Assembly (NCBI RefSeq): GCF_006438965.1
Contig: NZ_RCZM01000005.1
Coordinates: 124,001-188,000 of the forward strand
Reading direction: 5' to 3'
From: Pedococcus bigeumensis
GTDB taxonomy: Bacteria > Actinomycetota > Actinomycetes > Actinomycetales > Dermatophilaceae
DNA length: 64,000 nucleotides
The translations under genes were made by a program, and so were the position numbers. Positions 11,527-38,002 of the stretch are shown in pieces. Each line of letters opens with the position of its first letter. Position 1 is the stretch's first letter. Under the pieces are notes generated by a model. That model was given only the letters and a program-made list of their open reading frames with translations, was not told where the DNA came from and made no database searches.

Positions 11527-11567
11527 GGTGAGGTATGCCGCGTGGTCACCACGCGGCATACCTCACC
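11527..11567. repeat. 41-bp palindrome of the GGTATGCCGCGTGG family
   Basis: Two perfect 20-bp arms around a single central C, 5 bp after the clpC stop. Each arm contains the window-wide word GGTATGCC. A related palindrome is at 27467-27503 and a half copy at 16357. It may add to termination or protect the mRNA 3' end. Confidence 0.85.
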
Positions 11568-27466: not shown

Positions 27467-27503
27467 GAGGCATGCCGCGTGGCTGAGCCACGCGGCATAC
27501 CTC
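27467..27503. repeat. 37-bp palindrome of the GGTATGCCGCGTGG family
   Basis: Eighteen-base-pair arms around one central base with a single mismatch, between convergent genes. The arm GAGGCATGCCGCGTGGC matches 15 of 17 bases of the arm at 11530. It may act as a bidirectional terminator. Confidence 0.8.
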
Positions 27504-36245: not shown

Positions 36246-36998
36246 ATGGCGGGGAAAGGCAGCGGCGAGGTGGACTGGACCGTGCCCCTCCCAGTGCGGC
36301 GCGTCGAGCGCAGCCCGTATGCCGCCCTCCCGGCGGACCAGTGGCCGCTCACCATCCCGGCCGTGGCCCACGTGCTGCGCGAGGGGCTGGACCTGGGACC
36401 CGCCACGATCCTGGTCGGCGAGAACGGCGCCGGGAAGTCGACGATCGTGGAGGCCGTCGCGATGGCCTTCGGACTGTCCGGTGAGGGCGGCTCTATCAAC
36501 GCCCGGAACTCCACTCGCGCGACCGAGTCCGCACTGCACGACGACTTGCGTCTGGTGCGCGGAGCCGGGGCTGCGCGATGGGGCTACTTCCTGCGCGCGG
36601 AGACCCTGCACGGGCACTTCACCTACCTCGAAGGAGTGGCCGGACCGAACGACCCGGCGTTCCACGAGCTCAGCCACGGAGAGTCGTTCATGGCAATGCT
36701 GCGGACCGGGCGGTTCGACGGTGACGGGTTCTTCGTGATGGACGAGCCGGAGGCCGGACTGTCGTTCTCTGCGCAGCTGGCCCTCGTGGGGTCCTTGGCC
36801 GAGGCGGTCGCCGAACCGGGCAGGCAGGTGCTGGTCGCAACCCACTCGCCGATCGTGGCCAGCCTGCCCGGCGCCAGGATCCTGCAGCTCGATGAGACCG
36901 GCATCCACGAGACCGCCTGGGAGGACCTCGACGTCGTGGCGCACTACCGGCGCTACCTCGAGGGTCCGGGCCGCTACCTGCGCCACCTGCTCGACTGA
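36246..36998 (+). CDS. Stand-alone ABC/SMC-like predicted ATPase (COG3910 type)
   Basis: The 250 residues are a single ABC-like nucleotide-binding domain: Walker A GENGAGKST (~58-66), signature-like ELSHGESF, Walker B GFFVMDEPEAGLS, and H-loop ATHSPIVASLP. There are no membrane helices and no partner permease, so it is a soluble ATPase of the AAA_21/COG3910 group, whose role is unknown. The ATG is set by the TACAGT hexamer. It ends 29 bp before a 48-bp palindrome. Confidence 0.85.
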   Translation: MAGKGSGEVDWTVPLPVRRVERSPYAALPADQWPLTIPAVAHVLREGLDLGPATILVGENGAGKSTIVEAVAMAFGLSGEGGSINARNSTRATESALHDDLRLVRGAGAARWGYFLRAETLHGHFTYLEGVAGPNDPAFHELSHGESFMAMLRTGRFDGDGFFVMDEPEAGLSFSAQLALVGSLAEAVAEPGRQVLVATHSPIVASLPGARILQLDETGIHETAWEDLDVVAHYRRYLEGPGRYLRHLLD

Positions 36999-37026: not shown

Positions 37027-37074
37027 CTGTTGGAAGTGGAACTACCGGATATCCGGTAGTTCCACTTCCAACAG
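37027..37074. repeat. 48-bp perfect palindrome with no spacer
   Basis: Two 24-bp arms (left arm begins CTGTTGGAAGTGGAACTACC, centre GGATATCC) match without a mismatch or loop, between the convergent ATPase and nadC genes. It is less GC-rich than the flanks (~48%). It can act as a bidirectional terminator, but the zero-length loop and perfect symmetry are unusual for that. Confidence 0.9.
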
Positions 37075-37090
37075 GAGCACAACCATGGAG

Positions 37091-38002
37091 TCAGCCGTCG
37101 GTGAGGTCGAGGGCCAGGTCGAGGATCGGTGAGGAGTGCGTCAACCCTCCGACGCTGAGGTAGTCGACGCCGGTCTCCGCGTACTCCCTCGCCACCTGAA
37201 GGGTCAGACCGCCGGTGGCTTCCAGCTCGACGTCCTCGCCGGTGGCCCGCACCGCCTGCACCGTCTCGCGCAACAGCTGCGGAGACATGTTGTCGCACAA
37301 CAGGAACCGCGCGCCCACCTCGACCGACTCGAGCGCCTCCTGCGTCGTGGTGACCTCGACCTGGATGGGGACGTGGGGGAACTTGGCCAGCACCGCGGCA
37401 TACGCCTTGCTGAGCGAGCCGGCGGCGAGCTTGTGGTTGTCCTTGATCATGGCCACGTCGTAGAGGCCCATCCGCTTGTTGGTGCCGCCCCCGGCGCGCA
37501 CGGCGTACTTCTCGAGGGCGCGCAGGCCGGGGGTCGTCTTGCGGGTGTCGAGGACGGTGGCACCGGTGCCCTCGAGCCGCTGCGCCCAGGCGTAGGTGTG
37601 CGTCGCGATCCCGGACAGGCGGCACACGATGTTGAGCATCGTGCGCTCGCCGACGAGGGTCACCTGGGTCGAGCCGGACAGCGTCGCGACCACGTCGCCC
37701 TTGCTGACCACGTCGCCGTCACGGTGCTTCGTGGTGGTGCCTAAGGGCTCGGCACCCAGCCGCCTGGCCACCTCGTCGAAGACCATGGCGATGACGGGTA
37801 TGCCGGCCAGTGCGCCGGCCTCGCGCGCGACCACCTGGGCGCTGCTCACCTGGTCGGCCGGGATGGTGGCCATCGTGGTGACGTCGACGCCGTCGGGGCC
37901 GCCGAGGTCCTCGTCGAGGGCCGTCCTGATGACGGCCAGCGCGTCAGCCTCGGGGAACTCCAGCTCGGCGGCTCGCAGGTCTGTGGCGTGGGGATCGGTC
38001 AT
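37091..38002 (-). CDS. nadC: Nicotinate-nucleotide pyrophosphorylase (quinolinate phosphoribosyltransferase)
   Basis: NadC converts quinolinate and PRPP to nicotinate mononucleotide in de novo NAD synthesis. The ATG at 38002 overlaps the nadB stop and gives 303 residues. Motifs include EDLGGPDGVDVTT, the catalytic region TRKTTPGLRALEKYAV, GGGTNKRMGLYD, MIKDNH and the C-terminal SVGGLTHSSPILDLALD. It is the last gene of the pantothenate-NAD operon and ends before the 48-bp palindrome. Confidence 0.96.
   Translation of the reverse strand: MTDPHATDLRAAELEFPEADALAVIRTALDEDLGGPDGVDVTTMATIPADQVSSAQVVAREAGALAGIPVIAMVFDEVARRLGAEPLGTTTKHRDGDVVSKGDVVATLSGSTQVTLVGERTMLNIVCRLSGIATHTYAWAQRLEGTGATVLDTRKTTPGLRALEKYAVRAGGGTNKRMGLYDVAMIKDNHKLAAGSLSKAYAAVLAKFPHVPIQVEVTTTQEALESVEVGARFLLCDNMSPQLLRETVQAVRATGEDVELEATGGLTLQVAREYAETGVDYLSVGGLTHSSPILDLALDLTDG

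Follow-up and report, generated by a model that had tools for sequence, protein, structure and literature searches.

In a comparison of 13 species, the hairpins of Streptomyces were the longest and the most stable (PMC12207403). In S. clavuligerus, 353 of 535 highly structured transcript ends are without a U-run and have been likened to I-shaped terminators or to Rho-dependent ends, and bidirectional ends also occur (PMC8269248). Bacterial stem-loops cluster at the 3' ends of genes and in the gaps between convergent genes, and some of them belong to families of repeats (PMC1590033). The origin of such 3'-end hairpins and the persistence of long perfect stems are open questions. One process that can both create and maintain RNA hairpins is template switching in DNA replication, which alters several bases at once toward the complement of the other arm (PMC8794818).

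The palindrome described here touches on both questions. It lies at 37027-37074 of the window (the whole 64-kb stretch of DNA that was analyzed), and a scan of the entire window bears out the initial annotation, which had described a perfect 48-bp palindrome: the arms are 24 bp each, their complementarity is 100%, and the spacer is 0 nt. The left arm (37027..37050, plus strand) reads CTGTTGGAAGTGGAACTACCGGAT, the majority of family copies having CTGTTGGAAGNGRAACTNCCGGAT here, and the right arm (37051..37074, minus strand) is its exact reverse complement.

The 48-bp palindrome and its family

From the composition of the window, such a palindrome would be expected by chance about 1e-8 times per 64 kb; the second-longest zero-spacer palindrome in the window has arms of only 12 bp. 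The palindrome is also less GC-rich than its surroundings, as had been remarked at the outset (50% vs. 70.6% for the window). This low GC content is a trait of the 48-bp family, since the palindromes of four sampled genomes average 68-74% GC, near the genome values. On one side lies the gene for an AAA-type ATPase (36246..36998, plus strand), an ORF that matches Pfam PF13304 and PF13175 and whose start is uncertain, the longest ORF running from 36156. On the other side is nadC, encoding quinolinate phosphoribosyltransferase (37091..38002, minus strand), an ORF that matches PF01729 and PF02749, with its start taken from a codon-usage gene caller. The two genes are convergent, as the initial annotation had them, with the ATPase stop codon 28 nt before the palindrome and the nadC stop codon 16 nt after it, and the palindrome takes up half of the 92-nt gap between them.

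A search for other copies in the same genome and its relatives, proposed with the first description, found the family at 21 places in the genome of origin (G000) and at 19 or more in that of Phycicoccus sp. Soil802 (G008); two further congeners (G005 and G003) have traces of it. With about 20 places per genome in both G000 and G008, a unique element was rejected. At up to 3 mismatches, the arm matches 27 times in G000, compared with 1 match for the reversed-pattern control. When the arm pattern was loosened and up to 2 mismatches were allowed, there were 50 matches in G000 and 56 in G008 (27 and 17 in the reversed controls), and ten further genomes, nine of the same genus and one of the same family, all had fewer matches than their own controls. 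The exact full pattern matched G008 alone among 84,980 species, in a search set that possibly lacks the genome of origin.

The 21 copies in G000 and 19 in G008 were laid out together, and these 40 copies are the basis of the alignment and of a covariance model. Six extra G008 places found with the model, one of which (C7:41074) was inspected, stay outside the set of 40; one candidate (L126, G008 C7:383811) was judged to be no copy and was removed, and another (L127, in G003) is excluded from the counts. At E ≤ 0.001, the model from the 40 copies (A1, R1) gives 39 strand matches in G000 and 47 in G008, and between 0 and 5 per genome in the remaining nine members of the genus. The real-looking members outside G000 and G008 are two in G005 (51.7 and 36.3 bits) and one in G003 that adjoins nadC (46.5 bits). 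The remaining weak matches across the genus are other hairpins: those in G002 (two), G007 (one) and G003 (three) resemble a family with the sequence GATTCGAGGTAAAACCGCCGG, and the one in G010 is a different hairpin. In a family-wide search with stricter filters, under which weak matches are lost, model R1 matches 6 of 149 genomes at E ≤ 1e-6. Beyond G000 and G008, both of the readable matches (in G046) belong to the other hairpin family GATTCGAGGTAAAACCGCCGG, and in three more (L264, L265 and L267) the inspected sequence lay off-centre. A phage or plasmid origin was rejected after a search of viral contigs, plasmids and phages gave no match. The 48-bp family is lineage-restricted and dispersed.

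Sorted by eye, the 40 copies fall into two classes. Class A (28 of the 40) is near-symmetric, with a "left" arm, CTGTTGGAAG..., on both sides, and 8 of the 28 show no mismatch across the 24 bp. By its sequence and its place in the family layout and alignment, the window copy (37027..37074) is of this class, with two left arms head to head. Class B (12 of the 40) is asymmetric, combining the left arm with a different right arm, roughly NTCCGGAAGTTNYSGCWCSGACYC, and an internal loop results. There is also one right-right place, in G008 (C3:375656-375703), found as a pattern match with 2 and 1 mismatches in the two arms. A proposed rule for the orientation of class B, by which the left arm would face the upstream stop codon, was abandoned, as L092b/L120 and L106 are exceptions to it.

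Hairpins at the ends of genes

The predicted RNA fold of the window copy has energies of -46.9 and -47.7 kcal/mol on the two strands, with z values of -12.9 and -12.5; three class B copies that were folded are far weaker (-24.8 to -30.1 kcal/mol). A T-run past the palindrome was looked for on both strands of the window copy and none was found, and a canonical intrinsic (U-run) terminator was therefore rejected. What is present is a stable hairpin close 3' of a stop codon and free of a U-run, as in I-shaped terminators, which are further defined by RNA 3' ends that the polymerase makes at the base of the hairpin. I-shaped termination is itself contested for some RNA polymerases. Membership in an Rfam family was also rejected, the 8 matches at E ≤ 1 being all to microRNA models and none of them reaching the gathering score.

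Where do such palindromes sit? A census was made in 400 kb each of G000, G008, G006 and G003, with arms of at least 15 bp, a loop of at most 12 and at most 1 mismatch, and with genes from a simple codon-usage caller that was validated only on the genes near 37027-37074. It gave 29, 35, 26 and 41 palindromes in these four genomes, respectively, compared with 2 (G000), 3 (G008), 1 (G006) and 3 (G003) in order-2 Markov sequence (one simulation per genome). Among gaps of at least 60 nt, a palindrome was present in 46 of the 107 between convergent genes, in 56 of the 416 between tandem genes and in 5 of the 178 between divergent genes, the difference between convergent and divergent occupancy having a Fisher p of 7e-18. 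In tandem gaps, the palindrome lies a median of 22 nt past the upstream stop codon and 101 nt ahead of the next start, and 11 of the 131 census palindromes are inside called genes. This distribution is that of 3'-end hairpins. Within the 48-bp family, 10 of the 28 class A copies are in convergent gaps and 15 in tandem gaps, where one (L108) overlaps a called ORF; the other 3, at two loci, are in divergent gaps. Five of the 40 copies overlap a called ORF (L093, L100, L108, L119 and L120), and some neighboring genes are hundreds of bases off.

Two of these places have features of their own. In G008 (C1, L108:2989-3742), the called gene reads through the palindrome, and in G000 the stop codon precedes it; since the called gene runs through, the C-terminus of the adjacent protein may be encoded by the palindrome. 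At L091/L121, both species have a second inverted repeat, TGTGAGAGAGTCCTCTCGAAAGAGTYCTCTCACA, possibly an operator, which shares the divergent gap with the palindrome at a distance of about 20-60 nt.

Orthologous gaps were compared pairwise among four genomes, counting hairpins with arms of at least 13 bp; the pairs are not independent. In convergent gaps, a hairpin was present in both genomes in 12 cases, in one only in 3 and 4, and in neither in 8 (p = 0.02). The corresponding numbers for tandem gaps are 12, 4 and 10, and 83 (p = 2.5e-7), and for divergent gaps 0, 0 and 1, and 54. In 6 of the 12 convergent hairpin pairs the two sequences align poorly, with local scores of 6-11 vs. 17-33 for the rest. 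The ATPase/nadC gap of G006 holds a palindrome of different sequence with 25-bp arms; 3' of nadC, G008 has GGTTCGAGGTAAACGCGCCG... and G003 a related variant of the 48-bp family. The gaps at L111 and L112 hold the 48-bp family in G008 and, in G003, that genome's own family, TCATGCAAAAGGCGAGTTAGCG, whose arms match 120 times in G003, once with 3 mismatches in G008 and not at all in the ten others. A further palindrome family, GGTATGCCGCGTGG...CCACGCGGCATACC, is present in 10 of 12 genomes. Since orthologous gaps hold different families across species, it appears that gene ends in these species are filled with a few repeated palindromes, part of them common and part their own.

Other hairpins were seen along the way. 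On C1 of G003, TCATGCAAAAGGCGAGTTAGCG in places forms arrays, with at least 3 same-direction arms about 41-63 nt apart (e.g., 115911-116088, 321106-321251 and 3602915-3603062). A palindrome with 20-bp arms at 11527-11567 of the window, GGTGAGGTATGCCGCGTGGT.C.ACCACGCGGCATACCTCACC, belongs to a second dispersed family (10 of 12 genomes searched), and one of like sequence with 18-bp arms (GAGGCATGCCGCGTGGCT) lies at 27467-27503, between convergent genes, the orthologous gap in G006 having a version with 31-bp arms. Another hairpin family, roughly GRTTCGAKGTRAAMNCGCCGG, occurs in gene gaps of G002, G003, G006, G007, G008 and G046 (e.g., L250, L252, L256 and L266), in two genera.

Arm symmetry and dispersal

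The two arms of a copy vary together. In class A, the arms agree at 616 of 672 positions, compared with a mean of 580 and a maximum of 603 when right arms were dealt to other copies (2000 deals). Over the 40 aligned copies, 29 of 858 cells are changed on both sides and still pair, against a shuffled mean of 13.6; none of 500 shuffles reached 29, and slid controls gave 4-14. Such paired changes occur at four positions (alignment columns 9/42, 12/39, 14/37 and 19/32). Only the number of cells and the score exceed the shuffles: pairs with a double change (5 vs. 5.4 shuffled) and pair types (16 vs. 16.4) do not. Pairing beyond the 48 bp (86 of 168, with a shuffled mean of 69.8 and a maximum of 90) is only suggestive. 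In both G005 copies, the partner of a left arm, CTGTTGGTG.., is a right arm containing GGCACCGAC or GGCATCGAT, which suggests, with the polarity taken from this one outgroup genome, that the left-right hairpin may have come first and given rise to the left-left and right-right palindromes.

How do perfect palindromes stay perfect? A comparison of family copies suggests an answer. In the orthologous pair L107 (G000) and L125 (G008), the right arms are identical and the left arms differ at 5 positions; the left arm of L125 is the exact mirror of its right arm, and that of L107 is the family consensus except for the two innermost bases. L099 (G000) is a class A copy with 0 mismatches, and its orthologue L109 (G008) is a class B copy with 7. 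In both pairs, one arm seems to have been recopied from its partner, which is what template switching would predict. We infer template switching as the mechanism, along with a direction of change that in neither pair is fixed by an outgroup. The initial annotation had argued that a palindrome that persists despite its instability suggests a function; this argument needs correction, since template switching can also renew the symmetry, and the two orthologous pairs fit such a process.

The family differs in its distribution even between the two genomes that are rich in it. An orthologous copy in G008 is found for 9 of the 21 G000 copies. Among the other 12, the gap is comparable for three only (L090, L092 and L103). 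The L090 copy is absent from the orthologous G008 gap, which is the nearest to an empty site, the extra DNA being longer than 48 bp and the gap divergent; at L092, G008 keeps a shortened remnant; and L103 is the window copy, where G008 is without the ATPase gene and has another palindrome after nadC. Conversely, 10 G008 copies are without a G000 partner, and in the three comparable cases (L111, L112 and L117), the copy is absent from the orthologous G000 gap. The flanks of the 48-bp unit are unrelated between copies. No target-site duplication or clean empty site was recognized in orthologous gaps, which are too diverged. Among the listed arms at 0-1 mismatch in the genome of origin, those inspected (all but C7:614177, at 1 mismatch) have an adjacent partner arm of the left or right type. 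The REP-type transposase Y1_Tnp (PF01797) was found in 0 of 12 genomes and in 5 of 14 control genomes; REP/RAYT mobility is therefore unsupported and was rejected.

One copy is part of a protein-coding gene. In both G000 and G008, coaBC harbors a class B copy in frame, in the linker between its two domains, and the ORF stays open (peptides VGSETSGYPEVSAPT and VGSETPGSPDVSART). The coaBC linkers of ten other genomes have no similar insert, including that of G003, the start of which equals that of G008. In G004, the same linker (L242) has an expanded coding repeat, ATTSQ/STTSQ.

Function, origin and known systems

What, then, do these palindromes do? The one in the window is probably a bidirectional 3'-end hairpin, most likely an I-shaped, U-less terminator for the ATPase and nadC genes, and a copy of a lineage-restricted, dispersed family of about 48 bp whose arms would be kept alike by template switching and selection. 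Transcripts from either side would form the same stem 16-28 nt past the stop codon. This stem would end the transcript, which is the preferred option, or protect an end generated otherwise, and would stop the ATPase and nadC transcripts from running into each other. The family would have spread as a unit, and its arms would stay alike via one-step rewriting of one from the other, plus selection for pairing. Termination and the route of spread are both matters that we infer. The initial annotation had offered three guesses, of which the bidirectional terminator is the best supported, by the gap statistics, the RNA folds and the retention of hairpins in orthologous gaps, sometimes with a changed sequence. 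Against a terminator, the 3 class A copies in divergent gaps (two loci) have no obvious job for one, and a strong terminator within the coaBC frame would be harmful in both species, though class B folds are weaker. Nor is the likeness of the copies explained by position alone, because a generic hairpin needs no conserved sequence. Copies in divergent gaps, a copy inside coaBC and the conservation of sequence, not of pairing alone, are easier to reconcile with a unit that disperses and is retained where the hairpin is useful.

The nearest rival is 3'-end protection after another mode of termination, in which the ends would be made by Rho or by processing, the hairpin would do no more than block 3'-to-5' exonucleases, and the mature ends would lie at its base. 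Position and structure would be the same as for a terminator, the U-run is absent, and Term-seq data from S. clavuligerus offer Rho-dependent ends with a protecting stem-loop as an alternative for hairpins that lack U (PMC8269248). However, the symmetry and the preference for convergent gaps (46 of 107) suit a two-sided block to the polymerase at least equally. Such a stabilizer is possible, if not what we would favor, and its odds overlap with those of the preferred explanation because it is a sub-case of a 3'-end hairpin. More speculative, and rather doubtful, is a mobile terminator that needs no transposase: the 48-bp unit with a left and a right arm would copy itself to gene ends, template switching would then turn class B into left-left or right-right, two-way class A, and related species would run different families at the same ends.

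It is unlikely that the family is simply a mobile or selfish repeat of the REP, MITE or RPE type, a palindrome without function for the cell that settles wherever its insertion is tolerated, for the most part right behind genes. A remnant of a mobile element was another of the initial guesses, and part of it stands: copies of the unit are scattered among unrelated flanks (at 21 places in G000 and 19 or more in G008), one copy is within coaBC of G000 and G008 and not seen in the linkers of ten other genomes, the two genomes differ at orthologous gaps (L090; L111, L112 and L117), some copies are in divergent gaps, and the family is nearly absent from other congeners. On the other hand, neither a Y1 transposase (0 of 12 genomes) nor a target-site duplication was found, these palindromes are strongly biased to 3' ends, and the co-variation of the arms and the hairpins of other sequence at the same gaps indicate selection for the hairpin.

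A binding site for a dimeric regulator or a nucleoid protein, the remaining guess, gained no support and is highly improbable. The perfect symmetry and the sequence conserved over 40 copies would suit it, but divergent (promoter) gaps hold just 3 of the 28 class A copies, the same kind of place is occupied by palindromes of unrelated sequence, and the paired changes at columns 9/42, 12/39, 14/37 and 19/32 favor pairing over sequence alone; moreover, operators are usually shorter than 48 bp. Assembly can go wrong at long perfect palindromes, but an artefact at 37027-37074 is unlikely in the extreme, since the same type of palindrome is found on several contigs here and in a separate genome record; the family as a whole covers many contigs in two genomes, and its differing arms are each still self-complementary.

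The 48-bp family offers dozens of natural copies, orthologous pairs with a seemingly rewritten arm, and species whose corresponding gene ends carry unrelated palindromes. Sequence comparison and simple reporter assays in harmless soil bacteria should therefore be able to test how terminators originate as well as the template-switch model.

As in the U-lacking, I-shaped terminators of actinobacteria, a stable hairpin follows here soon after the stop codon and the U-run is absent; unlike them, it is a perfect palindrome with zero spacer, its sequence is common to about 20 loci per genome, and its role as a terminator is a predicted one. The stem-loops described in other bacteria, some of them in repeat families, have the same bias toward 3' ends and convergent gaps, the new families named there being those of Yersiniae, Bordetellae and Enterococci (PMC1590033). 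REP/BIME elements with RAYT are likewise short extragenic palindromes in multiple copies, but they usually number more than 100 (PMC2817692) vs. about 20 here, where the 12 genomes have no Y1_Tnp gene. The RPE of Rickettsia provide a precedent for a palindromic repeat in frame within a conserved protein gene, although they are 105-146 bp long (PMC2229807) vs. 48 bp here, and the present copies are mostly at 3' ends, with one clear coding locus (coaBC). In quasipalindromes corrected by template switching, several bases of one arm turn complementary at once (PMC8794818); here, a similar process would account for left-left, left-right and one right-right form in one bacterial family. Among the papers listed in literature searches on palindromic terminators and repeats in this group, no title or abstract opening describes the 48-bp family. 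Hairpins of this kind are known as such, but a dispersed, terminator-like family whose arms occur in left-left, left-right and right-right combinations looks new.
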